Source: Chitinophaga sancti
Lineage (GTDB): Bacteria; Bacteroidota; Bacteroidia; Chitinophagales; Chitinophagaceae
DNA length: 64,000 nt
NCBI RefSeq assembly: GCF_034087045.1
Contig: NZ_CP139247.1
Span: 5,854,001-5,918,000 of the forward strand
Direction of reading: 5' to 3'
Of the stretch, positions 44,767 to 64,000 are shown in pieces. A program made the position numbers and the translations under genes. The notes below the pieces were generated by a model, which did no database searches, was not told where the DNA came from, and worked only from the letters and a program-made list of their open reading frames with translations. Positions within the stretch are counted from its first letter, which is position 1, and every line of letters begins with the position of its first letter.

Positions 44767-44788
44767 AATTTGTTACTTTTGCTATTTA

Positions 44789-44875
44789 ACTTACTTTTTG
44801 TAAGTCAAAAATACCTGGTAACTAAGTATAAGACAAGAAGGCATTTGTAAATCAGTCACTTACGTCAATGTAACT
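44789..44875. promoter_or_regulatory. HxlR-type operator region with two inverted repeats
   Basis: ACTTAC-N5-GTAAGT at 44789-44805 and ACTTAC-N6-GTAACT at 44858-44875 lie between the divergent SDR and HxlR starts. A related half site GTTACTTTT lies at 44772. HxlR proteins bind such inverted repeats as dimers, commonly repressing both neighbour and own gene. Confidence 0.72.
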
Positions 44876-44896
44876 ATTGCTGATAACCAAATAGAT

Positions 44897-45286
44897 ATGA
44901 AAAAAGAAAATTCAAAAAAATGTGCAGAAGACCGGGAAGATTGCCCGATAAAGGATGTTCTTTACCGGGTAGGTGATAAATGGTCAATGTTAACGGTGAT
45001 CATGTTAAGCGATCATGGTACCCTCCGGTTTAATGAACTGCATCAACTGATCGACACTATTTCACAAAGAATGCTAACCGTCACCTTAAAGACGTTAGAA
45101 GCAGACGGATTGGTTTCAAGAAAAATGTATCCACAGATTCCGCCTAAAGTTGAGTATGCGCTTACTCCGCTTGGCGAGAGTTTGGTTCCTCCACTAATGA
45201 CTCTCTACCATTGGGCGAATGCAAGTATGCCTGCTATTAAAGAATCACGGAAACGCTTTCAAAAACAATTGAGCAAGGCGCTGTAA
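44897..45286 (+). CDS. HxlR-family transcriptional regulator
   Basis: 129 residues. CPIKDVLYRVGDKWSMLTVIMLSDHGTLRFNELHQLIDTISQRMLTVTLKTLEADGLVSRK is the winged helix core, with the characteristic N-terminal Cys16, sensor of electrophiles or oxidants in related HxlR/HypR proteins; there is another Cys at 9. Divergent from the SDR-DoxX pair, so likely its repressor or activator, acting at the inverted repeats in between. Confidence 0.93.
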   Translation: MKKENSKKCAEDREDCPIKDVLYRVGDKWSMLTVIMLSDHGTLRFNELHQLIDTISQRMLTVTLKTLEADGLVSRKMYPQIPPKVEYALTPLGESLVPPLMTLYHWANASMPAIKESRKRFQKQLSKAL

Positions 45287-45500
45287 ATTTAACCTTGATG
45301 GGTTTGTGAAAAGGTCAATAAAATATGACTGCCAATGATTGGTCAGCGAGTTATATTTTGGCCCATAGCGTGAATATCAGACCAGGCCAGGGCGCCCCGT
45401 ACCATTCGCTACCGGCCTTTGCTACATCCCAAAACTTTTATCCTGTTTACAATCAATAGGTATAAAAAGTAAGTGAATTTTCATTTATTCAAAAAATAAA

Positions 45501-48173: not shown

Positions 48174-49025
48174 GTTCAGGTATAAGGTAAGTACCTCATT
48201 ACAATTGGGTAAAAAATATATTGTCCCTAATTACATTATCGGAGTACAAAGCACGTCCGGATTATAGTAATTGTCTCATTATTTGTAGGTTCGAACAATT
48301 AAGAATAGAACTGCGGAATAACTTATTGCAGCCCTTTCCGGATAAAATTTTTGGGTCTTCGAAGATTTCCGGTTATAAACATGACAAATTTCTTGTCTTT
48401 ACTTCCGTTTATAAATGAATGTTGTTTTGCTCAATTTCGAGCGTAAAGCGTGCTTTACAACCTGCTATCTGGAACATTCATGGTTTAACTACGCAGTTGG
48501 CGTTATAACGGTAAAATTATATTTTTTTTTAAATATTCAGTCCCTATTTATTTAAAATTATTAATGTAATTTATAAACCACATTTGTAGCTAAAGCAATA
48601 TTAATCTTAGCTTTTAGTATGTTTTAATGAATCTGATTAATACAACCTGGCTCACTGATTAATCAGGCTAACCTACCACGAAATCACAGTGCCGGCAACG
48701 AATGGTGACAATGTTGGCTCCTTTATTAAAACTAAGGCACGGGTTGTCAATAAAGCATAGAAAGCGTTGCACTTATTCAATTTATTGAATCATTCCCTGC
48801 CCAAACACAGGGTAGGTTTTGACAGTTGCGAACAGCTTTGAACCCACTCCGCAAATACTGCTGCCAGAAAAACAAGACTTAATTCCTATACAACACAGTT
48901 GGAAGAGCTGCTAGTGAAGAAATGGTTTTATAAATTGACTACCTGATTGTTTTTTTGCAACAATGGAATGGTGTAAAAAAGGGGCTATCTTCATTTCACT
49001 GCTGATGATAGTCCTTATTGCGTTT
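48174..49025. other. Gene-free stretch of about 850 bases
   Basis: No convincing gene, RNA or mobile element. Contains a small perfect palindrome GTAAAGC-GT-GCTTTAC at 48443-48458 and A/T-rich sequence near 48520. Only short, non-conserved reading frames are present, for example a 34-residue Lys-rich one ending near 48944. It probably includes promoters for the genes at 48173 (leftward). Confidence 0.4.
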
Positions 49026-49985
49026 TTAAAAATCAAAATCTGTTGTTCCTGTCCAGGTAGTATCTGTCAACTGAAAATTGGGCGTTACATTCAACGAATC
49101 TGTAGTCAGAAAAACGGAGATAGCTGTCAGCGAGCTACGTTTTGGCCGGATTGGTTTGGTACCTAATACGACCGCATTTCCACTTCCATTGATCCAGGTA
49201 AGTGTGACCTGTAGCTGTGCACCGGGGATAGAATCCTGTGTTCTGAAAAGATCAGCAGTGTATATCTGGATGGGGAGAGTATCGTTTGTATGTATGGTAT
49301 CGGGGATCATTTGTCCGCCGTAGGTAGCTTGTAAAAATCCACTGGTCAGGTTGTGGATATCATAGCGGATGGCAAAAGCCAGTCTTTTTAACTGTAGACT
49401 AATCGTCGTATTGCTTGAATCGCGTGCGGTGTAGTTAGTACTACCGAAATAAGTATCGGCTTCTGACAAGGGATATTTAGCAAATGTATTTGTAAGGGTA
49501 TCGGTTACGATACTCATATTGTTCAGAGAGTCGATGAAACCTGTTTCCATTGTTTCATTTGCAGCATAATACATATGATTGCGCAGGGTACGATGTATAG
49601 GATAAGCATATTGCTTATACCCATCTGTAGAAAGTTGCCACCATAATCCCAGGCTACTGCCTCTTTTGATGGCAGCTACGTTGACGATGTAGGAACTGTC
49701 TTTCAGCAGATCGATGCTGATACTGTCAGTGTTGTCAAATAATCCCTGTGCGTATAATGTGCCCTGGCCTGTTCTGATATTCACACCATAAATGGTGCTG
49801 TCATAGGCTGATCTGGCGGCGATCCATGCTTTGCGAAGGTCGCCTATGCTGGTAGTAATGTCGCCACTAAGCTGTAAGTGTATGGTCACCTTTTCAGCAG
49901 TAGTGGGAGGAGGAGTAGGTTGCGTGGTAGCATCTCTTTTACAGGATAGAAAAAGTGCTGCCAGTATGAGTAGGTAATTTTTCAT
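49026..49985 (-). CDS. Lipoprotein, paralog of the next gene, unknown
   Basis: 319 residues; lipoprotein signal (LALFLSC, Cys15). The body is strands with Thr/Ser-rich turns (VTIHLQLSGDITTSIGDLRK, YDSTIYGVNIRTGQGTLYAQGLFDNTDSISIDLLKDSSYIVNVAAIKRGS), homologous along the length with the upstream gene 49998-51053 (LFDNxDSI, NHMxY, LKRLxFxIxY). Possibly a Bacteroidota surface lipoprotein in a Sus-like or fimbrial role, not assigned. Ends with TDTTWTGTTDFDF. Twelve bases from its paralog. Confidence 0.75.
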   Translation of the reverse strand: MKNYLLILAALFLSCKRDATTQPTPPPTTAEKVTIHLQLSGDITTSIGDLRKAWIAARSAYDSTIYGVNIRTGQGTLYAQGLFDNTDSISIDLLKDSSYIVNVAAIKRGSSLGLWWQLSTDGYKQYAYPIHRTLRNHMYYAANETMETGFIDSLNNMSIVTDTLTNTFAKYPLSEADTYFGSTNYTARDSSNTTISLQLKRLAFAIRYDIHNLTSGFLQATYGGQMIPDTIHTNDTLPIQIYTADLFRTQDSIPGAQLQVTLTWINGSGNAVVLGTKPIRPKRSSLTAISVFLTTDSLNVTPNFQLTDTTWTGTTDFDF

Positions 49986-49997
49986 AATGAAAATTGC

Positions 49998-51053
49998 TTA
50001 GAATCTGATAGGAGTATTTGTTGACCATGATGTAGTTGAATATTTCAGGCTTAGCGTACTATTGCCTGAAGTAGCACTACTGTCCAGTACGGGCAGTGTG
50101 ATATTCACATTGAGGAGGTGATTCCGGTCTGGCGTAGGGAGTGCAGTCGTGCTGCTTCCTATGTTGTAAGTCCGGCCATCAGGTAATTCCCATTTGATGC
50201 TTGCGCTGATATTATAGATGCCATCATCCATTACCAAAGTATCTGCTGTTAAGAATCCAACGGCAGAATAGATGCTCAGATTATTGTCGATTGTGTTTGG
50301 ATACAATACTTTCCCGGGTAAATAATTAGGCCAGCCGAAAGTGATTACCAGTCGTCCCTGTGTAAGCTGGGGGCAGATGTATTTAATGCCGAATACCAGC
50401 CGGCGCATGGGAATGGTGATGCTGGGGTGGGTAGTATCGACGGTGTAACCTTGTACATCTCCGGCGTAGGTAGTGGCTTCTCCTAAGCTTTGGGTCACGA
50501 TCTCGTTGGTGCTGTCACTGGTATAGGTCTGATAATCGGTGCCATTTTCTCCAAATCCATAAGCGTAGTTAGGAATGTTGGGGGTGTAATCCATATGGTT
50601 TTGCAGGATGCCACCGATGGGATAGTTGAATAGGGGTTTGCCGTCATCCTGTGTATTTCCATACAACGATCCCCATTGATAAAGATCATAAAATAATCCG
50701 GGGCCGGTACCTTTTTGCAATACTACCAGCCGAATTTTGTAGGTATAGGCAGGGTCCAGCAGGAAATGGATAGAGTCGGGGTTGTCAAAGATGCCTAATG
50801 CATATTTGGTAGAACCGTTCCATATCTCTACAGAATAATAGGCACTATCCCGTATTGTTTTGGCGGAAATACTACCGTTTACCTTTCGGGCAGACTGATC
50901 GACGATAAATTCACCTCCGGGCTGGAGGGTTACCATCACTTTTTTGGTGGACGAGGTCGTTGAGGTAGGTTTGGTGTCTGAATTCTTTTGACAAGAAGAA
51001 CAGTACAGGACAAAGGCCACCCCACAAACAATCAGGGAGATTGTAGTTTTCAT
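49998..51053 (-). CDS. Lipoprotein, unknown, tandem paralog
   Basis: 351 residues; lipoprotein signal (FVLYCSSC, Cys21), then KKVMVTLQPGGEFIV and strands YYSVEIWNGSTKYALGIFDNPDSIHFLLDPAYTYKIRLVVLQKG. The same order of segments as the downstream gene supports an old tandem duplication. An embedded Tyr-rich tract (YTPNIPNYAYGFGENGTDYQTYTSD) and conserved NHMDY follow. Surface lipoprotein, function unknown. First gene of the pair. Confidence 0.75.
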   Translation of the reverse strand: MKTTISLIVCGVAFVLYCSSCQKNSDTKPTSTTSSTKKVMVTLQPGGEFIVDQSARKVNGSISAKTIRDSAYYSVEIWNGSTKYALGIFDNPDSIHFLLDPAYTYKIRLVVLQKGTGPGLFYDLYQWGSLYGNTQDDGKPLFNYPIGGILQNHMDYTPNIPNYAYGFGENGTDYQTYTSDSTNEIVTQSLGEATTYAGDVQGYTVDTTHPSITIPMRRLVFGIKYICPQLTQGRLVITFGWPNYLPGKVLYPNTIDNNLSIYSAVGFLTADTLVMDDGIYNISASIKWELPDGRTYNIGSSTTALPTPDRNHLLNVNITLPVLDSSATSGNSTLSLKYSTTSWSTNTPIRF

Positions 51054-51252
51054 TTTTTGGGTGTTTAGTTTTATTTTTTTGAAGAAATGCTACACATTCC
51101 AGGCAGAGAGGTACAGCATGAAAGAAATAGGAATAATTGTATTGGTTCCCCTTATGAGGAGCAATTTACTGTATTTTTTGGGGTAGAATATTACTTGTAA
51201 TAGTAGACTCGGTAAGTGATGGGAGAGGTAATTATTTACAGCGTACACTGCA

Positions 51253-51471
51253 ATGGGCGAAGGAACTGACCTCTGGATCGGAAAATCCCCTGCATTGAAT
51301 GCATCCACCCTTCAAAAATACGTTGGCGCTTTTGGCGATCGTCAGGTTAACCCATGGTGGGTTTTTGGCGTAGCAGGTGTGATGGCTATCACTCTTACAC
51401 TCGTTACAATCAGCATACAAACTATTAGCGCAGCATTGGCCAACCCAGTAAAATACCTTCACGCGGAATAA
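51253..51471 (+). pseudogene. C-terminal remnant of an FtsX/MacB-like ABC permease
   Basis: The last ~40 residues, NPWWVFGVAGVMAITLTLVTISIQTISAALANPVKYLHAE (from 51349), are the standard final transmembrane helix and ANPVKxLRxE tail of MacB/FtsX permeases, which normally have ~800 residues. The first 32 residues (MGEGTDLWIG...) do not match any permease, so the join near 51345 is a rearrangement. Followed by a strong terminator, so it is the true end of a lost gene. No other part of it remains in the window. Confidence 0.85.
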
Positions 51472-51484
51472 TCCATGCCCTTTG

Positions 51485-51533
51485 AAAACGCCGGCAATTG
51501 TAATTGCAAATTAATGCTACCGGCGTTTTTTTA
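51485..51533 (+). terminator. Rho-independent terminator
   Basis: AAAACGCCGG / CCGGCGTTTTTTT with a ~25-base spacer. Just after the permease remnant. Confidence 0.85.
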
Positions 51534-51783
51534 TTTCATCCCCCTGTTAAGCTCGGTAACAGCATAGGTGTTATCACCCTTTTTTAAATTATTTTAGCCT
51601 GGCCACACTTTCGCTAAAATAGATGCGACTACCAAACCATCTGTATCAACAACCAAATTATTTTTTAAACACTTATAAAATTAATACACATTAAAAATTC
51701 GCTCTGGATAGACCTATTGGCGAAATGATTTTTTTATCTATTTTCGATCACATCAAAGTTATTGTTTACCATTTTTCATCACT

Positions 51784-51987
51784 CTAAACCTCAATTAACT
51801 GTGATATAAACGTTGTGAAATTACCCTCAAAATGCCGGTCGGTGGTAACTTTCCCTTCGCCATTCATTTCAATAACACTTCTTTTATACAGCCGGAATTT
51901 TCCTGATGCAGTGGTATCTCTAATCCGCTCGTTCCATTTTCTGAATAGCAATACCCCTGTTGTTAAAATGACACATCCTTTGAAAAC
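51784..51987 (-). other. Open frame without start, possible gene remnant
   Basis: Minus-strand frame from a TGA upstream of 51987 to TAG at 51784-51786, reading GVLLFRKWNERIRDTTASGKFRLYKRSVIEMNGEGKVTTDRHFEGNF... with protein-like composition and no ATG before the middle. It may be the last ~65 codons of a lost gene. The remaining 51541-52068 stretch contains only A/T-rich sequence and probable promoter for the cluster at 52069. Not supported by homology known to me. Confidence 0.3.
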
Positions 51988-52068
51988 TCAGCCTGGAGCA
52001 ATTTCGGGAAGTGCATCTACTTAGCCGCAATATTTCTTTATTCTTTATTCCATAAATGAAATACTCTT

Positions 52069-52680
52069 ATGAACACGCTCACACAAGCACAGAAAGACAA
52101 TCATGCATCCGTTAATCAGCGTCTGGGATTGGCGCCAGATGTGCACCTCACGCTCAACAAGCAAATTAAAAGTATCCAACAGCAAAAAAAGAACCTGGTA
52201 TTTTCTTCCGATCCACTTGAATCTGACGTTCCTCCAATTCATGTCAGTGTTGGATCCATCGCGGAATTTAAAAAAATGGTAGGTGTCCCTGATGACCAGG
52301 ATGACAGTCACGTCAACTATCCTTCTCCTTTGGAGGATCAACATCGCCAGCTGATGGCCAGTGTGGGCTCCAAAGCAGAATTACTGGGCAGAATGGATGA
52401 AGACCTCCACGATAAAATGCGACAAGCAGCTTATGCTTATGTGATGGGGAATTCCCGTAAAGTGCAGGAATACGAGCCACTGATTAATTCCCTCATGTTC
52501 CCTGGCAGAATAGCCGTATTCACTGGCCAAGACCTGAATATCCCTGCAGACGAAACTTACACTATTAAAGGAGAAGATCCTGTTGTAATGAATTTCGAAG
52601 AAATTACGGAAGGCCAGAATGCAGAAATTATGATCACTACCAATTGTTCATTGCATACACAATACTTCACCCAGCTGTAG
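52069..52680 (+). CDS. Hypothetical protein, first gene of the glycine-rich cluster
   Basis: 203 residues, no signal peptide. Helical N-terminus (TQAQKDNHASVNQRLGLAPDVHLTLNKQIKSIQQQKKNLVF), a middle helix-rich domain (MDEDLHDKMRQAAYAYVMGNSRKVQEYEPLINSLMFPGRIAVFTGQDL) and a beta stretch (YTIKGEDPVVMNFEEITEGQNAEIMITTN) that recalls solvent-exposed beta-helix starts. Not assigned to any family. Ends at a TAG where the next 43-residue frame stays open through the join, so a frameshift may have split one longer protein (see findings). No gene lies between. Confidence 0.72.
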   Translation: MNTLTQAQKDNHASVNQRLGLAPDVHLTLNKQIKSIQQQKKNLVFSSDPLESDVPPIHVSVGSIAEFKKMVGVPDDQDDSHVNYPSPLEDQHRQLMASVGSKAELLGRMDEDLHDKMRQAAYAYVMGNSRKVQEYEPLINSLMFPGRIAVFTGQDLNIPADETYTIKGEDPVVMNFEEITEGQNAEIMITTNCSLHTQYFTQL

Positions 52681-52724
52681 TACGTTCAGTACCTGCATTG
52701 TTCACCGTATCCAAAAAATTTCCT

Positions 52725-52856
52725 ATGGGAACAACATTCAATGTTACTGGAAGACCTTATAGTCATCCTGGCAATGCTGGCATCGCCGGGAATTCAGGTG
52801 GAAGTGGCGCCAATGGCATTGGTGGAAAATGTACCATAAAGGTTACAGGGAAATAA
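52725..52856 (+). CDS. Short glycine-rich protein (43 residues) or C-terminal part of the preceding gene
   Basis: MGTTFNVTGRPYSHPGNAGIAGNSGGSGANGIGGKC then a short strand TIKVTGK. Its start copies the N-terminus of the three following proteins (xFxxTGxPYxSP). Upstream, the same frame is open from ~52644 with VVRSVPALFTVSKKFP, in good coding style, so it may join 52069-52680 across a one-base shift near 52672-52682. Confidence 0.6.
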   Translation: MGTTFNVTGRPYSHPGNAGIAGNSGGSGANGIGGKCTIKVTGK

Positions 52857-52877
52857 TCGGTTACAAAAACTATTCTT

Positions 52878-53549
52878 ATGACAACCTTCTTATTCACAGG
52901 AGAACCGTATACGAGTTCAGGCACCCCTGGTAGCATGGGTTCTACCGGTTCCATTGGTGCAAGTGGCGTGGATGGCGCCTTTGCAGTGGAAAACAGCAAC
53001 ATAGTTTGTACCAGGAAGCCTGGCAACGGGCAGGTAGGAAACAGCGGTTCCACCGGTTCCACCGCTGCGGACGGCGCTAAAGGTCGTCCTGCTCCTCCCA
53101 GTACTCTTCACTTAGGCGTAGTAACCGGTACTGTCACTATTAAAGCAGGTGGCGGCACCGGCCAGGATGGTGGACAGGGAGGGACAGGCGGTACTGGCGG
53201 CCAAGGTGGCCAACCTGGTAATAATCCAGCATTCACCTTCCCTCCTCCTTTTAATATCCCACCTGTATATCCTTGTACAGCCGGGGTAGCGGGAGCGCAG
53301 GGCCCCGGCGGAAAAGGAGGCAATGGCGGCAATGCAGGCAATGGAGGGGACGGTGCTACTATCATGGCATTCTATACGTCTATCAACGATGGTAAACTTG
53401 AACCTATTACTTTTTATGGCACTCCTGGAACCCCCGGTCCTGGAGGCATTGGTGGTAGTAGTAATAACAGTAATCTGGGCCCTGGCAACACCGGAGCTCC
53501 CGGAAATCCCGGCACAGCCTCCAGCATCATCATACGTCAGGAACCCTAG
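52878..53549 (+). CDS. Collagen-like glycine-rich protein 1
   Basis: 223 residues, no signal. N-terminus MTTFLFTGEPYTSSGTPG, then glycine-triplet (Gly-x-y) runs (GSMGSTGSIGASGVDG; GGQGGTGGTGGQGGQPG; GGKGGNGGNAGNGGDG; GTPGTPGPGGIGG) alternating with beta segments (GRPAPPSTLHLGVVTGTVTIKAGGG; MAFYTSINDGKLEPITFYG). C-terminus SSIIIRQEP. Polyglycine-II or collagen-like rods are the likely fold; whether they trimerise or pack side by side is not shown. Cys at 46 and 132 only. Confidence 0.85.
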   Translation: MTTFLFTGEPYTSSGTPGSMGSTGSIGASGVDGAFAVENSNIVCTRKPGNGQVGNSGSTGSTAADGAKGRPAPPSTLHLGVVTGTVTIKAGGGTGQDGGQGGTGGTGGQGGQPGNNPAFTFPPPFNIPPVYPCTAGVAGAQGPGGKGGNGGNAGNGGDGATIMAFYTSINDGKLEPITFYGTPGTPGPGGIGGSSNNSNLGPGNTGAPGNPGTASSIIIRQEP

Positions 53550-53600
53550 CAAGAACTTTACGTTCATTCACCCTTATCTAAACCAAAAAAATATAAAATC

Positions 53601-54242
53601 ATGGCTACTATTTTAATTACTGGAGAGCCTTATTCCAGCCCGGCCCCGAATGGCGGGAATGGCAGCACCGGCACACAAGGTAGTCCGGGTGTTGCAGGCG
53701 AAACCGGCTACAATAGCAGTAACTGTACTTATTACTGCCTTTCAGGTCCTAGCAATGGTGGGCAGGGCGGTCAGGGAACAACTGGTATCACCGGATCTGC
53801 CGGGGCTAAAGGACGTCCTGCTCCTCCCACTACCCTGAATCTTGGCGTAGTAACCGATAACATAATCATTCGTGTGGGTGGCGGAAGAGGCCAGGATGGC
53901 GGTAATGGAGGCATTGGCGGCAATGGCGGACCTGGTGGTAATGCCGGTGCTTTGGATCCTAAAGGGAAATGTACATCTGCCAGCCAGGGTCCACAAGGGA
54001 GAGGAGGAACTGGCGGCAACGGGGGTAAAGCCGGCGATGGAGGCGATGGTACTACCGTAACCGTCAATTACACCAAGATCTCCGGCGGTTCTATCACACC
54101 GGATCCTTTCTTCGGAGACCCAGGTACTCCTGGTGGCTTAGGCAATGGTGGACCGGGAAATCCTACGGGCACAAATGGCAGCAATGGCCCTTCCGGCGCC
54201 AAAGGCAGCGCATCACAGGTGATTATTCGTCAAGTACCATAA
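53601..54242 (+). CDS. Collagen-like glycine-rich protein 2
   Basis: 213 residues with N-terminus MATILITGEPYSSPAPNGG, the Cys pair YNSSNCTYYCLSGPSNGG, repeat tract GGNGGIGGNGGPGGNAG, second strand segment RPAPPTTLNLGVVTDNIIIRVGGG, and C-terminus SQVIIRQVP. Paralog of genes 1 and 3 in every segment. Preceded by A-rich sequence instead of a Shine-Dalgarno, as usual in Bacteroidota. Confidence 0.85.
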   Translation: MATILITGEPYSSPAPNGGNGSTGTQGSPGVAGETGYNSSNCTYYCLSGPSNGGQGGQGTTGITGSAGAKGRPAPPTTLNLGVVTDNIIIRVGGGRGQDGGNGGIGGNGGPGGNAGALDPKGKCTSASQGPQGRGGTGGNGGKAGDGGDGTTVTVNYTKISGGSITPDPFFGDPGTPGGLGNGGPGNPTGTNGSNGPSGAKGSASQVIIRQVP

Positions 54243-54257
54243 AAAATTAAAAATACT

Positions 54258-54902
54258 ATGTCTTCAATTTTTATTATCGGCGCGCCTTATACAAGTCCGG
54301 CTCAGATTGGAACAAAAGGGGCTGCCGGCAACATCGGTAATCAGGGAGCTGCCGGCCAATATGCTTACAACAGTACCAACTGTACCTACTACTGTCAAAG
54401 TCCTCCTACCAATGGCTCAATGGGTACTACCGGCACCACAGGTGGTACTGGTATTGGAGGTGGCAAAGGCAACCCTATGCCGCTGAATGATATTCATCTC
54501 GGCATCGTTACAGGTGAATGCACTGTAGAAGCAGGTGGCGGCGACGGCCAGATTGGTGGCGCCGGCGGCGTAGGGGGAGACGGCGGTCCGGGCGGACCGC
54601 CAGGAGCAGTTGACAGCAAAAGTACATGCACGCCCGCTTCTTACGGCCCACAGGGATATGGTGGCCAGGGCGGCAATGGCGGACGTGGTGGCGACGGTGG
54701 TAATGGTGATACGCTCATGGTATACTACAAAGGCCTCGGACCCAACGGCAACATCATCGCAAAAGAATTTAATGGCGCTCCAGGCACACCAGGTACTGCC
54801 GGCCTGCCAGGCGTTAGCAGCAGTGGGAATTTTGGCCCCGGAAATCCAGGCGGCCCCGGAAATCCAGGCGCACCTTCCAGTATCATCATTCGCAAAGAAT
54901 AA
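54258..54902 (+). CDS. Collagen-like glycine-rich protein 3
   Basis: 214 residues with N-terminus MSSIFIIGAPYTSPAQIG, Cys pair YNSTNCTYYCQSPPTNGS, glycine tract GGDGQIGGAGGVGGDGGPGGPPG, then GGQGGNGGRGGDGGNGD, and C-terminus SSIIIRKE. The PxPLNDIHLGIVTGECTVEAGGG segment corresponds to PAPPSTLHLGVVTGTVTIKAGGG. Seventeen-base gap after protein 2 indicates an operon. Confidence 0.85.
   Translation: MSSIFIIGAPYTSPAQIGTKGAAGNIGNQGAAGQYAYNSTNCTYYCQSPPTNGSMGTTGTTGGTGIGGGKGNPMPLNDIHLGIVTGECTVEAGGGDGQIGGAGGVGGDGGPGGPPGAVDSKSTCTPASYGPQGYGGQGGNGGRGGDGGNGDTLMVYYKGLGPNGNIIAKEFNGAPGTPGTAGLPGVSSSGNFGPGNPGGPGNPGAPSSIIIRKE
54834..54869 (+). repeat. Exact two-copy 18-base tandem repeat
   Basis: GGCCCCGGAAATCCAGGC occurs at 54834-54851 and again at 54852-54869 inside the glycine-rich protein 3, coding Gly-Pro-Gly-Asn-Pro-Gly twice. 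Consistent with growth by slippage. Confidence 0.85.
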
Positions 54903-55058
54903 CTCCTGCAAATATTTTCGTTCGATAGCAAATCAACATGGTCTGGTCCCGCTAATGACTTATTACAAATCCGGGACCGGTTTTCCGATCAATTCTTCAA
55001 TTACCTGTCTGGGGAACAAAAGGAGATTTGTTCTCCAGACATAAAACGTCTTCATACA

Positions 55059-56651
55059 ATGGCACAGACTAATTCAGCTCCTGAACCAACTGCGCTGGCT
55101 ACCAATATTCATGTTCCTCTCGCCAGCCTGGAAATGATTGCGGCACAGGCAAACATTTATGATTTACTCGACGATGATCCCAGCCTACCTCCCGGGTGGG
55201 ATGTCATCATACGACCATTCAAAAATGATCCCGCTACCGATAAAATCGTTCCTATCCCATCTCAGGGATACATGGTCAAAATAACCGTTCAGGATAACGA
55301 CGGCAATAAAGTCCAGGTAGATATTCTGGCTGTCGGCATCTCCTGGCTGAAATTTTTACTGTACCAATATGATGGTGCTTTTAAACTGGAGACCTTACCC
55401 ACAGACATTGCCGGAAAATCCATTCCGGCAACAGCACAAGTACTTTCTATGTATTCCATCGCCTATCAATTCCTACGCAGACCGATATGGAATGCGGTTA
55501 TTAAAAGAGAAGATCCTTCCCGTCCGCTGTATATCTGCGGATTTGGAGTAGGTGCGCCACTGGCACAGATAGCTGCACTGGATCTGCGTATTGGCAACCA
55601 GGGTCCTACCGATCCCAATACAGGCATCAAACCCAATGCGCCCTCTACGCCTACTCCCTGCTATACTTTCACCAATGCCAGCTTCGCGAACAGCGACATG
55701 GCTACCTATTTTACCAATACCATCACTGCGCCAGTAACGGTTACCAGAGCAGGCAATGCTGGCAATGATGTAGATCAGTGGCCCAACTCTCCCGCTGGTT
55801 TCTCCTTACTGGGCACCTACAACCCGGTGAATGCGAGTCTTGATCCAAATGCAGATGATCCATGGTGGGAAAGAGCCACTATATACTATACTCAAACACT
55901 GGGTGGTAGCCCGATTCAGAATGATCCTGAGCCTGTAAATATTAATCCTCCCGCAGGATTCTCCAGAGACATGGCTTTCTCCTTATCCAAACTCGCCATG
56001 CTCTCCTATCACTGGGCACAGCACCCCGACAGCAGCGGCGCTGATGCACCTGCCAATTATCAATATTTAACAAAAATTGATAGTAACGGCAGCACCTGGG
56101 CTTATCTCTTTAAAGGCGACACCAATAACTCCATTGTGGTCGTATTCCGTGGAGAAATCAACTGGACAGAGTTTAATACCTACACAGCCCTCACCGGCTT
56201 TACCATGCCACCATGGAGCCCAATGGGTTCCGCGCAGGTGAATATAGGTGCATATAACATTTATGCAGGCCTTGCCAATGCCCTCAAAACTGCATTACAA
56301 CCATACAGCACAAGAGATCTCTACTTCACAGGACACAGTCTTGGTGGTGCTATCGCCAATATTGCCGCATCCAATTATGCAATCTCCAAAATTCAAACGG
56401 TGAAAGCAGTGTACACTTTTGGCAGCTTAATGTCGGCCAACGCTGATTTCTCCACCGTATTTAATAATGCGCTTGGCAGCAACAGCTACCAGATAAGAAG
56501 ACCGAATGATATTCTCGCCATAGGATTTATGAGCATCGGATATTATGAGGTGAATACTCCCGTGCTGCTGCAGGGACAATTGAAATATGAAGATCCGGAC
56601 TATCACAATCTGCTCAACTACATGAAACTACTGGACACAGCACTTTTATAA
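55059..56651 (+). CDS. Class 3-type lipase with tandem alpha/beta-hydrolase halves, first half degenerate
   Basis: 530 residues, no signal. The second half is a lipase_3 domain: VVVFRGEINWTEFN, nucleophile Ser427 in FTGHSLGGAIANIAA, Asp484 in RRPNDILA and His516 in DPDYHNLLNY. The first half has matching positions: PLYICGFGVGAPLAQIAALDLRI (158-179) aligns with DLYFTGHSLGGAIANIAASNYAI (420-442), and CYTFTNASFANSDMATYFTN with VYTFGSLMSANADFSTVFNN, but its Ser is Gly163. So the protein is an internal duplication with a dead first domain. Would hydrolyse lipids or esters, target unknown. Sits between glycine-rich proteins and the giant gene. Confidence 0.88.
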   Translation: MAQTNSAPEPTALATNIHVPLASLEMIAAQANIYDLLDDDPSLPPGWDVIIRPFKNDPATDKIVPIPSQGYMVKITVQDNDGNKVQVDILAVGISWLKFLLYQYDGAFKLETLPTDIAGKSIPATAQVLSMYSIAYQFLRRPIWNAVIKREDPSRPLYICGFGVGAPLAQIAALDLRIGNQGPTDPNTGIKPNAPSTPTPCYTFTNASFANSDMATYFTNTITAPVTVTRAGNAGNDVDQWPNSPAGFSLLGTYNPVNASLDPNADDPWWERATIYYTQTLGGSPIQNDPEPVNINPPAGFSRDMAFSLSKLAMLSYHWAQHPDSSGADAPANYQYLTKIDSNGSTWAYLFKGDTNNSIVVVFRGEINWTEFNTYTALTGFTMPPWSPMGSAQVNIGAYNIYAGLANALKTALQPYSTRDLYFTGHSLGGAIANIAASNYAISKIQTVKAVYTFGSLMSANADFSTVFNNALGSNSYQIRRPNDILAIGFMSIGYYEVNTPVLLQGQLKYEDPDYHNLLNYMKLLDTALL

Positions 56652-56694
56652 TGCCAGGTGATTTCCGATTTTCCTGACCCACAAATCATTGACG

Positions 56695-59600
56695 ATGATT
56701 AATGAAATAAGCGCCGCCAAATCAGCCAGACATAAACAGGCGATGGCCGGCATCGGTGATAATGGTTTAACTTTTGCCGGCCTGGATCCCGTACTTGCCA
56801 GCATGGGAATATTGATAGGTTTACTCACCCAGCCCGATCCTCAACAGGAAGTTTATCAGCTAAACCCCAACTGGTTCGCCAATCCTATCAATAATACCCA
56901 GCAGGGTATTACTGCCAATCCGGAGCAATTCGAAAAGTTATTAACTTCCATACTGGGTAAAATCGGAGGCAATGCCCTGGGCATTCCCATACAGGATGCA
57001 GCGCTTCTCGGCACCTGGTATCCCATTAAAAATGGTAATGACCCTACGGGGTTTTACCTGGTCAGCTATCAGAAAGAAAACAACGGCTTAAAAGAAACGG
57101 TACTGGGCCTGGGCGTCCTGCATACCTGGAAAGTGCCTCCCGGCGCCCCGCTCCTTACAGTAAATGTTTGGGGCTTAATGCCTTTCGTAGCCATTGGTAA
57201 CGGCAGCTTTAAAATTACCTTTGCTGATCAGGGCTATCCCATAAGTCTGGGTGTAGCCACACAGGGCGGCGATCCAAAACTCCCGCTGGTGGATATCAAC
57301 GGCATCTCTTTCGACGGGGTGAAGTTCAGCGCCATGATAGACGTTGCCGCCAGTGATCCTTTTAGTGTATCCCTGGAAGTATTGTCGTTAAAGCTCGGTA
57401 GCGCTCCTCCTGCCAATAAATCCCTCGCAGACCTGCTGGCCATCAGCGGGCAAGAAATGCTGGAAATAGCCACCAACCTGTTTATGGGAGCACTTAGCTA
57501 TGTCTTCCCGAATCAACAGCAATACCTCAATTATATCACTCCTTTACTTGGCCTCACCTCGCAGGTACCTAATCTACCAAATATCACCCTTCCTGTAATG
57601 GAGTGGTATAACCTTTTTGAGGTAGCTTCCAATCCTGCGAAATATCCGGAAGGTGTTAAAACGCTGTTCTTTAAATGGTTTAATGCACTGTGTACAGATC
57701 CCGATGCGCTGAAAGGATGGATCTCCGCTCTCAGCGGATTCCTCGGCAATTCCAATCTGCAAATAGCGGGAACGGGTACACGTATAAATCCATTCCGGTT
57801 AGGCATCCTGAATGTCAGCAGTATAGGGCAACTGGATTTTGCCGTGGCTACCACGGTAGATGAAGGGGGCATCCGCTACTTTTATCCCGGTTTTTCCTTC
57901 ACCGGCAGCAATGTGCCTTTAGGCAGCTCCCCTGCTGTATTCACCGCCCAGGCCAACCTTGAACTGGGACAGTTTGGACTCAGCGCGCAGGCAGTTACTG
58001 CCTCTCCTGAAATAAATTTTCAATTCCAGTTCGCTCTGCAAAATAGAACGACCGGTCAGCCTTTGGTATCCTATGATGGCAACAGCGTAGGTTCCCTCAC
58101 GGCAGGACTGATCCTGGGCTCCGACGGAAAAATCGTTCCTGATTTTTCCCTGAACCAGGTTATTACCACTACAACTTCTTTTGATAAAGTAAATCTCTTA
58201 TCTCCTGGCGAACTGGCAGAAGCCGGCGCGGCTGCTCTCAGTGCTGCACTGGGTACCCTCATTGGTATTGGCACCAGCGATTTTGCCAACACCATAGGGG
58301 CATTGATCGGATTAATCACGCCTGCCAGTGCAAAGAGTAACTGGCCAGCTACACTCCCAGCGCCATTCTCCGGCACGCAGATGGCTCACTCCATCCTGAA
58401 TCCGGTGAAGGCCTGGGCAGATTATTATCTCGCAGTCTTACAATATGCCAACCCGGTAGACGGTAAGGCGGCATTTGCCTATATCATCCAGGAAATGGCG
58501 CTTTTACTGCAACAAACTGTATCAGGACTTAATGTAACCGTTACAGGAAGCGGTACCAAAGACGATCCCTGGATGGCCGGTATTGCGCTGAGCAGCAGTA
58601 GTCTCCCAGCCTTCCTAACGGCCTTCAAACAGGTAAATACAGACAACAGTATCGATCTGGTGATGGGACTGATGCTCCAGCCTACGATTACAGTGGCTGG
58701 TGTAGACATTGCGCCATCGCTGAACATGGGAGGACTTGCGCTGAATTTCCCTGCAAACGGCGCTGGTATAGATGCATCCTGGCTGCCTGCCGTCAGCGCC
58801 CAGCTACAGCTTCCAAACGGATTCATGACGCCGGCTATTGGAGGTGTAGTCGTTAGCGTTAGTAAATCACAACTCTCGGCCGAATGGAACCGCCAGAGCG
58901 GATGGGGATGGTCCATGTTTGTGGATTCACCGAAACTCATCATCAACGGACAGGATATTATCCTCGGACAGAACCTGAATTTCGATCAGCAAACCAACCT
59001 GAAAGATCTGGTACTAAACGCTGTACCAGCTTTCAGTCCTTTCCTGGTAGGTGCACTCGGTGCTTTACTGATGCGCGTGGAAAACAGGGCTGCCCTCTTC
59101 ACCATTGGTGCACTGGGCCTGGTTCCGGATATTACCAAATCGCCGGTATTCCCTACAGGTCTGAGCTGGACCGGCTTCCAACAACTCAAACTCAACAGCC
59201 TGAGTAATCCATGGCCGGACCTGCGCAACTACCTGTCGGCCACCTTTGGTTCAGCAGCTAATGCCAAAAGCCTGCTCTCCTTACTCTCCTATGTAATCAA
59301 CACGCAGATTGAAGCAGCTCCTGCCACCGGTGGCACCGGCACTTTCGACGATCCATGGATATTCCCGCTGCCATTAGGTTTTGAAGGAATCGCCTGGTAT
59401 GAAGGTACCGGACAGATATTAGGTCTCGGCGCAGGCAGATCCAATTCCTGGCAATATCAGATTACTAATGGCAACGACACTACGAAATTTGGATTCGATT
59501 TACTCGCCCGTGCAAACGCACTGAAATATAATCTTTCCACCGGTAACCTCCTCTTCGATGGGCAGGTGCCTTCATTCAGCCTGACAGGAGTTCTCTACAA

Positions 59601-62600
59601 CCCGAATGGCATGCTGGTTAATTTACCAGCATCGCTGGGCAGCGTCGAAAAAGTGATCGTTGGCTGTAATCTCTCTTACGATACCACCAAAAAGTCATTT
59701 CATTTCGAACCCGTTGTAACGCTGGTCAACGTCACCTTACCTGGCCAGCAGCCAAAAGCACTATTAACCTTACAGGACTTCCTGGATCCAGGCTTTACAG
59801 CTGCGTTCCAAAATGGCTTCATGGTATTACTGAATGCAGGTCTGCAAGCGGCATTTGAACAGGTGAAAGCCAAACCGCTCTTCCAGCAGGCCTACAGCCT
59901 GCTGTCCATGCTGGGACTAACGATAACGCACGATGGAGAAACAGACCTCCGCAACATCCAGCAGAACAATATCACAGACGGATTGCTGGGCATCAACACC
60001 GCAGGCTGGAATGGACTACTCGCGAATTTCGACACTTATATACAAACCCAGTTCAATAGCCTGCTGGCCATAAAAGAACAGCGTAGTCTGCTATTCAACT
60101 TCCTGTCTGAGATCTTCGGCATACAGTTCCCGAACTTCCCTGAGCCGGTGCTGCAGCTGTTACAGGGCATGGGCATCTGCGGTCCTGCTGAGGATGGATA
60201 TACCGTCTATCCGTATGTGTTACTTGATTTAATCAGTAATCCGTACAAAACATTCCAGCAACTTTATCAGCAACTGTTTGATATCGCAAACGTCGCCAAC
60301 CTGAAACAACTGGCGGCGCATCTGTCCAGGAACCTGGGCCCGTATAAGACCGGCAGCTGGACCTTCAGCACCGATTCCAACGGCGTTATATCCTTTGGTA
60401 TTTTACCAGCCGACGCATTCCAGCTGGGTTCCTTCCTCCTTACCAGTGGCGGCATACAGCTAGACCTCAGCAACGAAAAGCTGGAAGGAACAATGGATAT
60501 TTACTGCGCAAACGTAGGTATAACCCTGAGATGTGGATTTACCCTGAAGCTGGAAGCCGGCGTACTTAAGCCTGCATTTAAAGCATCAGCGATATGGGGG
60601 GACGGCAGCAAACCAGCCGCGCAAGCCCTCCATCTTATACCGTTTAACACCAGCGACTTCCTCAACAACGTCGCGGATCTGGCTCCAGCTTTTACCCTCA
60701 ATATCTTTCTCAACGCCATTTTTGAAGAACAGCTGCTGAAAAAATATCCGCTCATCCAACAAATTTTCATTGGGCTGGGATTGGGAGAACAAATACAGAC
60801 AGAAAGTCAGGCAGTACAAAAAGCGGTGAACGGACGGCATGCTATTGCTACATCTGTTGCCGATCAGCAGTGGCAGATGCCAGCCCTCATGGGCATTCTC
60901 GAAAATCCTTTGGGATGGCTCCTCTCCGACGATGTATTAGGCACCAACGGCAGATTCAGTATCTCTAAACTGGTGCAAATGCTCAGTCATTTGCCGGCAG
61001 TACAAGCCTCCAATGGCATCAAAGTAACGCCTGATAACAAAGGTATGACCATCAGCGGCATGCCTTATGGCTTTGAAATTTCCATGAGTGGAGAAAATGA
61101 AGTAGCCACTTTCGGTTTTGACACCAAAGACCTTGTTATCAGCGACCAGTGGGGCACTTTGAATATCCTGTCTTTCCAGGTGAGTGTGGATAGTAACTAT
61201 CAGCCTTCTTTCGCTGGTGAACTTACCGTTTCCACCGGTTCAAAAATAACCGTTCCATTTTTTGTCAACACCGGATATAACAACGACTTTTTCCTCAACA
61301 TCGCGCAGGGCAAACCAGGCACCCCAAATGGCCTCTCGCTGCAACTACTGCCTTTCATTGGGTGGGGTACACTGGCCGAACAGGCAGCCCGGCTCGCAGC
61401 TGCAGCGGCTTTGAAGAACCTTGTTCCGATTGTATTACAAAAATTATCCGACAGCGGAGCCAAAGTATTTGTAGATAAACTCATTGCATTTGGCGATACC
61501 GTCAATACCACAGAACTGGTAGACAACATCATCAAAGTACTTACGCCATCTGCATTTGCGACTACATCACAGCAGGATCTGCTCAAGCAGATTGAACGGG
61601 TTGCCCTCGCGTGGTTACAGGAAAAATTTACCCCAACAGGCGCTCCAATAACGGTACAGGGTTTAATTACATTGCTCAAAGATGTAATGCCCGGTGTGTC
61701 TGCACAAGGTGGCAGATTAGCATTTACACCAGACATTAAGATACCGATCACCATTCTCGCAGGATTGAATGACAATGGGTTTTTAGGACTGTGGGCTACC
61801 TTCACTCTTCCTGATACACAGGTATTGAAAATACAAATTGCGGAAACCGGCGTAGGTGTGAAACTAGATGGAACACTTGATTTCTCTTTTGCACTGGATA
61901 TGCTGATCCCTGTAGATGATAAAAGCGGACCGGGTCTAACGTTTGCATATGATTTAAACAAAGGATTCAATCTCGTATTCGACCCAACCAGTGATAGTAC
62001 CGATTTCTCCAAACATTCAGATCTGGCAGTAGAACTGTTACCGAATTTCTTCAGCAAACCTACCGCTGATCTGGGCGCCATGCAACAGGGCGTGACCGAT
62101 TGGTTGTTGCAAGTAGTAAAAGTAGTGCTACCCCGATACGTTTCTCTCCTGGTGCTCAACATCCAAAAAGTGAAAGACTGGCTGGAAGCCCCTATCGTGA
62201 CTTCTGTTACCGGTGCGCCTACACCTGCTACACTGTTGATAGCGACGTCTCTCATCCTGAAAAACAATGGAAAATATGAACTGAACAGTATCGATAATCT
62301 TACCAAGCTGACACCCTCCGGGTTCTTTGGCAATCTGTTCTATACGCTGATGCAGACAGAATTAACCCTGTTGCAATTCGGTGATAAGAACAGTGGTAAA
62401 ATTACCGTAGGACCGCGTGCGGGCAAGCAGGATTACTATGGCGTAAGAGTGGCAGCACCTAACCTTAAACTCGCAGCCCTGCCTAATCTCGTAGTACAAA
62501 TAGGAGCAGATGATACCGAATGGATCGATAAATCCAGTACCAATAAAATCACAGGAGAACCGGGCATAGGTTTCTACCTGCCTATTACTAAGTCGGGTAA

Positions 62601-64000
62601 CAATGAACTGAATGTAGACTTCTCTCTGTTCAATTTATTGTTGTATAATCTCGGTTTTGATGTAGTTGGTACCAATGGCAAGCCTATTGTGGATCAGCCG
62701 CGATTTAAAATTGGTGCAGTACAGCCTAGAACAGTATTTGAACTGGACTTCAAAGGCAATGCAAAACCTGGCTTACAATTCGGTGCAGGCGTCACTTTGG
62801 CGAACATCGGATTATCGCTCGCGCCGGATAAACTGGCTGGTTCCGCGGGCACCAACCCTATTGCCAATAACCTCCTCGGCTCAGGTAGTACAGCTGGTAA
62901 TCCGCCTGTAAATCCTGAATTTTCTGTCAGTACTGCCTATACAGAAAAACTGTGGGTGAATCTGAAATCCAATACGGGTAATGGTGCGCAGGTAATTGTA
63001 CCGATAGAACGTTCTTTTGGTCCATTGTATATTGATAGTCTGGGTTTAGGTTGGGAAGACACGAATAAACTACTTGACTTCCTCTTCTCCGGTAATGTGG
63101 CCCTGGCAGGTCTTAAAGCATCCGTAGTAGGCTTAACAGTAGGCGTTCCAGTTACTGACCCAACGAACTTCAGTTTATATAAGGCAGACCTCCAGGGATT
63201 GGATATCAGTTTCAATGGAGGTGCTGTTGCCATCAATGGCGGGTTCTTAAAAACAGAAACCATTGTCAACAATGCGAAGGTTATTATGTACAACGGTGTG
63301 GCGGTGATTAAAGCAGGTACCTTCTCGCTGATGGCATTGGGCTCTTACGCGGAAGTGCCGGTATCGTCTGCCCCTGGTGCAGCCACCATGCCTTCTCTGT
63401 TCATTTTCGCTGTGCTGAATTCGCCATTGGGTGGCCCTCCATTCCTGTTTATTACAGGTATCGCGGCGGGCTTTAGTTTTAACCGTTCGCTGGTGATTCC
63501 TGATATTACCCAGGTGCAGGACTTCCCGCTGCTGAAAGGCCTCGTGGATGGCACTTTTGCAGAAGGAGAAGATCCGGGCAAGGCGCTGCAGCAACTGAGT
63601 TCAGTAGTACATCCGGAAATAGGAAAGTACTGGCTGGCAGCAGGTGTGAAGTTTACTTCCTTCGAACTGTTGACCACCTCCGCCCTGCTGTTCCTCAGCT
63701 TTGGCAAGGAATGGGAAGTCAATTTGCTGGGGCTTAGCTTTACCTCCCTGCCACCAAAGATTCCAAGAAATCTGGCGCTGGCCTACTTCGAGCTGGCTAT
63801 CAAAATATCCTTCCTTCCAGTAGATGGAATACTTTCCGCAGAAGCACAACTGACCCCCAACTCATTCGTATTATCGAAAGATGTGAAAGTGACCGGAGGG
63901 TTTGCTTTCTTCCTATGGTTTAAAAATATTAAAACATCCACCTATACTATACCTGCCGGTGATTTCGTCATCTCATTGGGTGGCTACCATCCTGATTTCA
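56695..64000 (+). CDS. Giant protein with DUF6603-like C-terminal part, truncated at window end
   Basis: Open from ATG 56695 to the window edge without a stop, at least 2,435 codons. No signal peptide: MINEISAAKSARHKQAMAGIGDNGLTFAGLDP. The N-half repeats a motif GTGTxxxPF/GSGTKDDPW/GTGTFDDPW at residues ~359, 618 and 880, spacing 259-262 residues, so it is built of ~260-residue modules. Amphipathic strands fill the middle. From residue ~2080 on: EKLWVNLKSNTGNGAQVIVPIERSFGPLYIDSLGLGW, GGFLKTETIVNNAKVIMYNGVAVIKAGTFSLMALGSYAEVP, SLFIFAVLNSPLGGPPFLFITGIAAGFSFNRSLVIPD, resembling DUF6603 as I recall it. Role unknown. Long minus-strand frames inside are shadows. Confidence 0.85.
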   Translation, partial: MINEISAAKSARHKQAMAGIGDNGLTFAGLDPVLASMGILIGLLTQPDPQQEVYQLNPNWFANPINNTQQGITANPEQFEKLLTSILGKIGGNALGIPIQDAALLGTWYPIKNGNDPTGFYLVSYQKENNGLKETVLGLGVLHTWKVPPGAPLLTVNVWGLMPFVAIGNGSFKITFADQGYPISLGVATQGGDPKLPLVDINGISFDGVKFSAMIDVAASDPFSVSLEVLSLKLGSAPPANKSLADLLAISGQEMLEIATNLFMGALSYVFPNQQQYLNYITPLLGLTSQVPNLPNITLPVMEWYNLFEVASNPAKYPEGVKTLFFKWFNALCTDPDALKGWISALSGFLGNSNLQIAGTGTRINPFRLGILNVSSIGQLDFAVATTVDEGGIRYFYPGFSFTGSNVPLGSSPAVFTAQANLELGQFGLSAQAVTASPEINFQFQFALQNRTTGQPLVSYDGNSVGSLTAGLILGSDGKIVPDFSLNQVITTTTSFDKVNLLSPGELAEAGAAALSAALGTLIGIGTSDFANTIGALIGLITPASAKSNWPATLPAPFSGTQMAHSILNPVKAWADYYLAVLQYANPVDGKAAFAYIIQEMALLLQQTVSGLNVTVTGSGTKDDPWMAGIALSSSSLPAFLTAFKQVNTDNSIDLVMGLMLQPTITVAGVDIAPSLNMGGLALNFPANGAGIDASWLPAVSAQLQLPNGFMTPAIGGVVVSVSKSQLSAEWNRQSGWGWSMFVDSPKLIINGQDIILGQNLNFDQQTNLKDLVLNAVPAFSPFLVGALGALLMRVENRAALFTIGALGLVPDITKSPVFPTGLSWTGFQQLKLNSLSNPWPDLRNYLSATFGSAANAKSLLSLLSYVINTQIEAAPATGGTGTFDDPWIFPLPLGFEGIAWYEGTGQILGLGAGRSNSWQYQITNGNDTTKFGFDLLARANALKYNLSTGNLLFDGQVPSFSLTGVLYNPNGMLVNLPASLGSVEKVIVGCNLSYDTTKKSFHFEPVVTLVNVTLPGQQPKALLTLQDFLDPGFTAAFQNGFMVLLNAGLQAAFEQVKAKPLFQQAYSLLSMLGLTITHDGETDLRNIQQNNITDGLLGINTAGWNGLLANFDTYIQTQFNSLLAIKEQRSLLFNFLSEIFGIQFPNFPEPVLQLLQGMGICGPAEDGYTVYPYVLLDLISNPYKTFQQLYQQLFDIANVANLKQLAAHLSRNLGPYKTGSWTFSTDSNGVISFGILPADAFQLGSFLLTSGGIQLDLSNEKLEGTMDIYCANVGITLRCGFTLKLEAGVLKPAFKASAIWGDGSKPAAQALHLIPFNTSDFLNNVADLAPAFTLNIFLNAIFEEQLLKKYPLIQQIFIGLGLGEQIQTESQAVQKAVNGRHAIATSVADQQWQMPALMGILENPLGWLLSDDVLGTNGRFSISKLVQMLSHLPAVQASNGIKVTPDNKGMTISGMPYGFEISMSGENEVATFGFDTKDLVISDQWGTLNILSFQVSVDSNYQPSFAGELTVSTGSKITVPFFVNTGYNNDFFLNIAQGKPGTPNGLSLQLLPFIGWGTLAEQAARLAAAAALKNLVPIVLQKLSDSGAKVFVDKLIAFGDTVNTTELVDNIIKVLTPSAFATTSQQDLLKQIERVALAWLQEKFTPTGAPITVQGLITLLKDVMPGVSAQGGRLAFTPDIKIPITILAGLNDNGFLGLWATFTLPDTQVLKIQIAETGVGVKLDGTLDFSFALDMLIPVDDKSGPGLTFAYDLNKGFNLVFDPTSDSTDFSKHSDLAVELLPNFFSKPTADLGAMQQGVTDWLLQVVKVVLPRYVSLLVLNIQKVKDWLEAPIVTSVTGAPTPATLLIATSLILKNNGKYELNSIDNLTKLTPSGFFGNLFYTLMQTELTLLQFGDKNSGKITVGPRAGKQDYYGVRVAAPNLKLAALPNLVVQIGADDTEWIDKSSTNKITGEPGIGFYLPITKSGNNELNVDFSLFNLLLYNLGFDVVGTNGKPIVDQPRFKIGAVQPRTVFELDFKGNAKPGLQFGAGVTLANIGLSLAPDKLAGSAGTNPIANNLLGSGSTAGNPPVNPEFSVSTAYTEKLWVNLKSNTGNGAQVIVPIERSFGPLYIDSLGLGWEDTNKLLDFLFSGNVALAGLKASVVGLTVGVPVTDPTNFSLYKADLQGLDISFNGGAVAINGGFLKTETIVNNAKVIMYNGVAVIKAGTFSLMALGSYAEVPVSSAPGAATMPSLFIFAVLNSPLGGPPFLFITGIAAGFSFNRSLVIPDITQVQDFPLLKGLVDGTFAEGEDPGKALQQLSSVVHPEIGKYWLAAGVKFTSFELLTTSALLFLSFGKEWEVNLLGLSFTSLPPKIPRNLALAYFELAIKISFLPVDGILSAEAQLTPNSFVLSKDVKVTGGFAFFLWFKNIKTSTYTIPAGDFVISLGGYHPDF

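Follow-up and report, generated by a model that had tools for sequence, protein, structure and literature searches.

A giant DUF6603 protein and a predicted one-module fatty-acid route share a conserved gene cluster in Chitinophaga sancti

The window analysed here is a 64,000-nucleotide stretch of the Chitinophaga sancti contig NZ_CP139247.1 (assembly GCF_034087045.1; bases 5854001-5918000 of a single-contig, 8.3-Mb genome, labelled G000 below). Seven plus-strand genes running from position 52069 to the window end, as called from open reading frames (ORFs) and their translations, form the leading part of a cluster of 15 genes on one strand. They include glycine-triplet genes, a lipase-like gene (LIP) and the gene for a DUF6603 protein of 3,204 residues (GIANT), and further downstream stand a polyketide synthase (PKS) headed by a fatty acyl-AMP ligase (FAAL) and a hydroxylase of the AspH family. 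The order of these genes is conserved across phyla, which supports a single system. A huge protein, predicted to be of beta type, that is rather hydrophobic and probably leaderless, together with a fatty-acid route of its own and a lipase that has mostly lost its serine, points most simply to a protein-lipid assembly, and we tentatively propose that the cluster builds a leaderless assembly of this kind, loaded with a dedicated hydroxy fatty acid.

The gene cluster

The preliminary description of this DNA had reported seven plus-strand genes with short gaps, and the ORFs and translations agree with it, the gaps measuring 15 to 156 bases inside the window. Reading the downstream flank, as it had proposed, extends the cluster by about 19 kb beyond the window end and adds eight plus-strand genes after GIANT (D506, E303, F1331, G484, H142 and I164, below D to I, then the PKS and the hydroxylase); the next large genes lie on the opposite strand. 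Across the whole cluster the gaps range from -4 to 156 bases, with 4-base overlaps at GIANT/D and D/E and a spacing of 5 bases between PKS and hydroxylase. From GIANT onward, coordinates are in extended window numbering, in which 64000 is the window end.

A203: 52069..52680, plus strand, first cluster protein, 203 aa (ORF)
B43: 52725..52856, plus strand, minimal Gly-triplet protein, 43 aa (sequence and translation; below the 80-aa ORF cut-off)
C1: 52878..53549, plus strand, Gly-triplet protein, 223 aa
C2: 53601..54242, plus strand, Gly-triplet protein, 213 aa
C3: 54258..54902, plus strand, Gly-triplet protein, 214 aa
LIP: 55059..56651, plus strand, two-headed alpha/beta-hydrolase of class 3 lipase type, 530 aa (Pfam Lipase_3)
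GIANT: 56695..66309, plus strand, DUF6603 protein, 3,204 aa, 2,435 of them within the window
D506: 66306-67826, plus strand
E303: 67823-68734, plus strand
F1331: 68745-72740, plus strand
G484: 72751-74205, plus strand
H142: 74249-74677, plus strand
I164: 74761-75255, plus strand
PKS: 75330-82277, plus strand, 2,315 aa
AspH-type hydroxylase: 82283-83035, plus strand, 250 aa

Conservation of gene order

Searching genome contigs with 32 aligned long giants gave 294 related places, of which the best 80 were kept, so that the locus counts are biased towards close relatives of the long form. Measured by ORF, the giants fall into a long type of about 3,200 aa and a short type of about 950-2,100 aa, and no relative was found in viral contigs. 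The main table holds 34 loci ranked as long-type (L023-L056); the long-type loci L090 and L057 stand outside it, L050, a contig fragment, could be of either type, and L030, L037 and L056 run into the end of their contigs. Its counts come from six-frame searches with profiles partly built from the same loci, independent first hits being those of single-sequence phmmer, and the phyla of relatives are taken from record titles.

D, E and F are present in all 34 loci, G in 30 and LIP in 28. An acyl-making neighbour stands in 28 of the 34, as a type I FAAL-PKS, whole or partial, in 21 and as a stand-alone ketosynthase (KS) in 7; the profile alone gave 29, including an unrelated AMP-ligase in L049, and the corrected figure counts the L041 flank. 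The usual order across phyla is A203, Gly-triplet genes, LIP, GIANT, D, E, F, G, PKS and then hydroxylase, and Chitinophaga, Vibrio and Paracoccus all share it. The arrangement differs in L041 and L043, where A203 and the Gly genes follow G; in L039, where F is inverted and upstream; in L030, L038 and L053, which have PKS and hydroxylase on the opposite strand; and in L055, which has its PKS upstream on the opposite strand and an A203 match after G. The gene set, with a constant core, occurs in Bacteroidota, Pseudomonadota, Acidobacteriota, Cyanobacteriota, Actinomycetota, Bacillota and others. Lack of this order in any other genome had been named beforehand as a sign that a single system was unlikely; the order is in fact conserved.

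Among 79 genomes of the same genus, the N-terminal half of the giant and the AspH-type hydroxylase occur in the identical 7 genomes, about 25 kb apart. This co-occurrence and the cross-phylum conservation lead us to reject a chance gene order. Over 15-16 lineages, pairwise distances correlate with those of GIANT for F (0.99), PKS (0.94), LIP (0.93) and hydroxylase (0.88), values that have no species-tree control and partly reflect shared descent. The giants of Fulvivirga, Algoriphagus and Belliella share 60% identity with that of Vibrio and just 45-46% with GIANT of the window; with the same proviso on the species tree, the cassette has likely crossed phyla.

In L038, a Marinomonas record, the frames of the giant, LIP and F are broken into pieces. 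Short DUF6603 frames are commoner than the long form among 59 same-genus genomes searched, and two genomes of the genus (G016 and G017) carry three and two DUF6603 genes, respectively.

The acyl module

Pfam divides the PKS into an AMP-ligase (residues 20-397), KS (557-931), acyltransferase (AT, 1082-1372), ketoreductase (KR, 1693-1885), acyl carrier protein (ACP, 1998-2050) and thioesterase (TE, 2092-2311). The active-site residues of KS, AT, KR, ACP and TE are kept in 16/16 sequences, the AT motif varying around its Ser. Judged by its domains and active sites, the protein is a type I PKS of the FAAL kind. Pfam recognises no ACP between its FAAL and KS; for desmamide, a FAAL joined to a PKS with no ACP between is noted in a review (PMC11837247). 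The hydroxylase belongs to the AspH family (PF05118, 151.8 bits), keeps its histidine motifs in 15/15 sequences and matches the solved AspH chain 5apa at 2.9e-22.

PKS was present in 15/15 downstream flanks, with the hydroxylase next in 14 and the contig ending in the fifteenth; these flanks were picked for a KS hit at the expected place (L038 being left out of the KS search) and are not a measure of PKS frequency. Five loci from Janthinobacterium, alphaproteobacteria and an acidobacterium (L040, L046, L051, L054 and L057) have an ACP-like gene (88-113 aa) and a KS in the PKS slot. The ACP passes the Pfam cut-off in all of these except L057, where it scores below; the KS is recognised by Pfam in L046 and L054 and otherwise assigned by profile or clustering, and the PF05118 hydroxylase is found by Pfam in L046, L051 and L054. 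That one function is reached with two different enzyme sets suggests that the assembly needs an acyl product.

An APH-type kinase (PF01636) lies beside the PKS or hydroxylase at L106:8565-9386 and L117:18147-18983 (minus strand), and look-alikes of 267-275 aa were noted by eye in L109, L110, L114 and L115; none was seen beside these genes in the genome of the window.

A lipase fold that is probably not a lipase

LIP matches Lipase_3 (PF01764) with 71 bits against a cut-off of 22, over two stretches, in keeping with the two heads described earlier. In the window, Gly occupies the nucleophile place of head 1 and head 2 keeps its Ser. After L079 and L100 were dropped from 28 rows as not orthologous, the nucleophile Ser was found in 4/26 sequences at head 1 and in 4/26 at head 2, and 19/26 have it in neither head. 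LIP is thus probably no working two-headed enzyme and, as most sequences lack Ser in both heads, looks like a binding subunit rather than a cutting one. A working lipase as the heart of the system is rejected for the family on the same count. The earlier suggestion of a lipid-handling assembly is partly supported: it probably loses a working two-headed lipase but is strengthened by the FAAL-KS-AT-KR-ACP-TE PKS and AspH-family hydroxylase downstream, and by the ACP, KS and PF05118 genes that take their place in some other lineages.

GIANT and its predicted structure

The preliminary description had foreseen a DUF6603-like giant of more than 2,400 residues. The full protein has 3,204, with repeats of about 230-260 residues followed by a DUF6603 (PF20248) core at residues 2105-2613, partly past the window, which scores 447.3 and 442.3 bits in two scans against a curated cut-off of 27. 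Eukaryotic (fungal) members of DUF6603 exist. GIANT is rather hydrophobic. An absence of signal peptides had been reported, and by hydropathy and by eye none is clear in the seven window proteins, GIANT included; however, a fairly hydrophobic stretch at about residues 27-45 of GIANT (mean hydropathy 1.72) lies within a conserved motif, and several giants have such a stretch in their first 60 residues (1.6-1.7).

Structure models predict, with moderate confidence, a chain of repeats made of helices and long antiparallel strands that ends in a beta-meander like those of outer-membrane proteins, the DUF6603 region being the part so modelled and its likeness to outer-membrane proteins weak. No solved relative of GIANT, D, E or F was found by sequence profile at E < 0.1. 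A viral fold search gave five rows at E < 0.001, yet with TM-scores of just 0.08-0.15, and no bridge-like lipid transfer protein (VPS13, AsmA type) is among the fold matches listed.

A203, Gly-triplet proteins and the remaining genes

Four Gly-triplet genes with shared ends had been described, and both GxxG counts and end motifs uphold this for C1-C3. GxxG pairs number 39, 42 and 42 in C1, C2 and C3 against shuffled means of 14.7, 18.0 and 17.4 (standard deviation about 3), and the longest unbroken Gxx run (7-8 triplets) is above the shuffled mean of about 4 and inside the shuffled maximum of 8. The proteins begin with TGEPYxS or like, and C1-C3 end with SSIIIRQE or like; B43 is weaker in this likeness by eye and has five phmmer hits in four loci, its own included. 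A203 profile matches and Gly-triplet genes (composition test) are each present in 29/34 loci, counts that use a separate A203 profile because earlier profiles for the two had drifted together. A203 is fused to a Gly-triplet region in L025, L028, L029 and L031 (396-397 aa). Pfam gave nothing at E 0.1 for C1 and C3, nor at 0.01 for C2 and the proteins taken from L025 and L039, in scans whose HMMER filters can drop repetitive sequences.

A203, C1-C3 and D to I have no curated Pfam family above cut-off, B43 being outside the scan, and A203 is also without a match in PHROG, NCBIfam or PADLOC. When 10 cluster proteins were compared with PHROGs and NCBIfam, the only rows were of hydrolase type and all for LIP, those of NCBIfam far under their cut-offs. 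No PHROG structural family appeared, in line with the absence of phage markers reported earlier; with no related viral contig either, a phage tail or contractile injection element has no support. An anti-phage defence system is likewise unsupported, PADLOC on 9 proteins returning one weak row in the coiled coil of F (LmuB, E 0.0007, 16.2 bits). This region of F1331 (L003:5745-9740), at about residues 426-536, is likely a long coiled-coil hairpin and has weak matches to coiled-coil chains only. H142 and I164, between G484 and PKS, have phmmer relatives in 5 and 4 loci, respectively, their own counted.

Rfam had no match within 44000-64000, and promoter- and terminator-like sites in 51000-56800 show no excess over shuffles. 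Upstream on the minus strand (45501-48173 and 49026-51053), one large protein whose C-terminal end is of gliding type was noted by eye, along with two lipoprotein-like proteins that resemble each other.

Short-type loci and exchangeable neighbours

The core extends to the 46 loci L057-L102: 37 of them have D or E, 39 have F and 32 have both, with Actinomycetota, Bacillota and Chloroflexota represented, whereas LIP is matched in 3 and a Gly gene (C1) in 2. Among 77 short-type neighbours scanned, of 146 candidates, the families include Lactamase_B (5), Collar (4), Kelch (3) and Laminin_G_3 (2). A constant giant-D-E-F core with exchangeable outer genes suggests a body with changeable tips, the outer genes being Gly proteins and LIP here and, in some short types, Collar, LamG, Kelch and metallo-hydrolase proteins.

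Collar, LamG with S74 chaperone, or metallo-beta-lactamase-fold neighbours, some by Pfam and others by eye, adjoin L060, L063, L070, L075, L079-L081, L083 and L091; the LamG protein with an S74 chaperone is a Pfam assignment in L079, and L059 has a Kelch neighbour. The Pseudomonas short-type loci L083 (3226-5255), L076 and L084 adjoin a ketosynthase, L083 also a short-chain reductase.

A possible protein-lipid assembly

How might these parts work together? In the reading that we tentatively favour, the FAAL would activate a fatty acid, the single KS-AT-KR-ACP-TE module would lengthen it by two carbons to give a 3-hydroxy acid, and a further hydroxyl would come from the AspH-family enzyme, by analogy with what its family member LpxO does on lipid A. 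The hydrophobic face of GIANT would then hold the hydroxylated acyl product, D, E, F and G would complete the body of the assembly, the pseudo-lipase would bind acyl esters instead of cutting them, and the Gly-triplet proteins would form rods on the outside. If this is true, a bacterial lipid-protein particle would be a new kind of bacterial structure, and the acyl module is the first handle on the function of the system to which the 3,204-residue protein belongs.

Several points weigh against this proposal. All its support is sequence and prediction, and the substrate of the AspH-type enzyme might not be an acyl chain. Moreover, the core can exist without acyl genes: genome G224 has GIANT-D-E-F-G with no match to A203, LIP, PKS or hydroxylase in the 39.5 kb read, and 6/34 loci are without PKS or KS (L050 and L056 being cut by contig ends). 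Outside the genus, in a phylum sample of 395 genomes, the long giant occurs in 2 and the hydroxylase in 2, both together only in G000, and a strict bond is further countered by G147, a genome of the same class whose hydroxylase relative (L128:15108-15854, 38% identical) has no match to the giant or any other cluster profile in the 20 kb read. Shared descent within the distance correlations belongs here as well. The structure prediction called for in the preliminary description did yield a beta-meander, but at a predicted TM-score (pTM) of 0.43, with 0.38 for the other GIANT model, and with weak fold matches: the seven fold-search rows at E < 0.001 have TM-scores of 0.10-0.25, and the best barrel rows a root-mean-square deviation of 12-16 A, which means common topology at best. 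Lipovitellin and apoB match at E 0.019 or worse (0.023 and, at best, 0.019, respectively). The first repeats show just a weak amphipathic signal (z 1.7), the signal is unspecific (3.2 for protein G, 1.0 for a control outer-membrane barrel), and 12/22 long strands of the DUF6603 model pass the amphipathic contrast.

A bolder version, which we consider unlikely, is an apoB-like bacterial particle: a leaderless giant beta-sheet protein would wrap a hydroxy fatty acid from its own one-module PKS, together with glycine rods and a dead lipase, and would have moved between phyla as one cassette, its DUF6603-D-E-F core given other tips in other lineages.

Alternatively, the acyl product could itself be a natural product of the FAAL-PKS, a lipid that diffuses or resides in the envelope, for which the giant complex would be carrier, export path or self-protection. 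We hold this as a doubtful though credible account. FAAL-PKS enzymes are typical of natural-product clusters according to a review (PMC11837247), and the APH-type kinases of L106 and L117, with the look-alikes in L109, L110, L114 and L115, are consistent with it. However, D, E and F go with the giant in 34/34 loci and the PKS does not, and no transporter was recognised among the recurring unassigned neighbours, where none was searched for by name.

A further possibility, to which we give a rather low chance, is an extracellular binding or antagonistic machine freed by lysis, in which the giant would insert into a target membrane as a large beta-barrel and the Gly-triplet, Collar, LamG and Kelch proteins would be target binders. 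Outer-membrane barrels are the nearest folds, the Lactamase_B, Collar, Kelch and Laminin_G_3 neighbours of short types and the LamG and S74 chaperone of L079 suit such a role, and Gly-rich phage adhesins exist, with the S16 adhesin the subject of a paper. This account nevertheless leaves the dedicated fatty-acid module unexplained and meets no phage structural family in the 10 cluster proteins (the one PHROG hit, of esterase/lipase type, is that of LIP), nothing related in viral contigs and no toxin domain among the neighbour families listed (25 of 88).

It is improbable that the giant and D-G form a cytoplasmic scaffold that organises PKS and hydroxylase, with the giant binding no lipid. The want of clear leader peptides and the co-variation of PKS and giant distances speak for it, whereas the G224 core has no PKS and the short-type loci of monoderms also combine DUF6603 with D, E and F. 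That PKS and hydroxylase are hitch-hikers unlinked to the giant, as loci without them and their single joint occurrence in the phylum sample might suggest, is very improbable given the order shared by Chitinophaga, Vibrio and Paracoccus, the 7/7 co-occurrence in 79 genomes and the different acyl module in the same place elsewhere.

Comparison with known systems

No paper on DUF6603 (PF20248) was found in the open-licence literature, nor one joining FAAL, PKS and Chitinophaga or combining the parts of the cluster. Pfam names DUF6603 as a family of unknown function, and its model spans about 500 of the 3,204 residues of GIANT; the long form with extra N-terminal repeats, and its gene set, are not described in the papers searched. 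Collagen is characterised by a Gly-X-Y triple helix, and none of the five Gly-triplet proteins scanned matches any Pfam model. For the packed polyglycine-II helices of phage adhesins the comparison covers the Gly-triplet pattern. The GIANT model is weakly like outer-membrane beta-barrels (SlpA, SprA, LptD, porins) in its long antiparallel strand meander and differs in that the giants have no clear signal peptide by eye and occur as short forms in Gram-positive bacteria. For the protein-lipid assembly favoured here, apoB and lipovitellin offer a comparison of working and not of kinship, GIANT having no sequence-profile match to a solved chain and weak fold matches; apoB is described as a chain of great length whose amphipathic beta belt encircles lipid (PMC12419007).

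LpxO, an acyl hydroxylase, falls in the AspH family (PMC5767591), and the cluster hydroxylase resembles LpxO/AspH (PF05118) in family match and histidine motifs and differs by its PKS setting. FAAL-loaded type I PKSs, such as the cyanobacterial olefin synthase and the desmamide PKS, combine AMP-ligase, KS, AT, KR, ACP and TE as here. Unlike these, the cluster PKS has one module only, is followed by an AspH-type hydroxylase and stands beside the genes of a giant protein.

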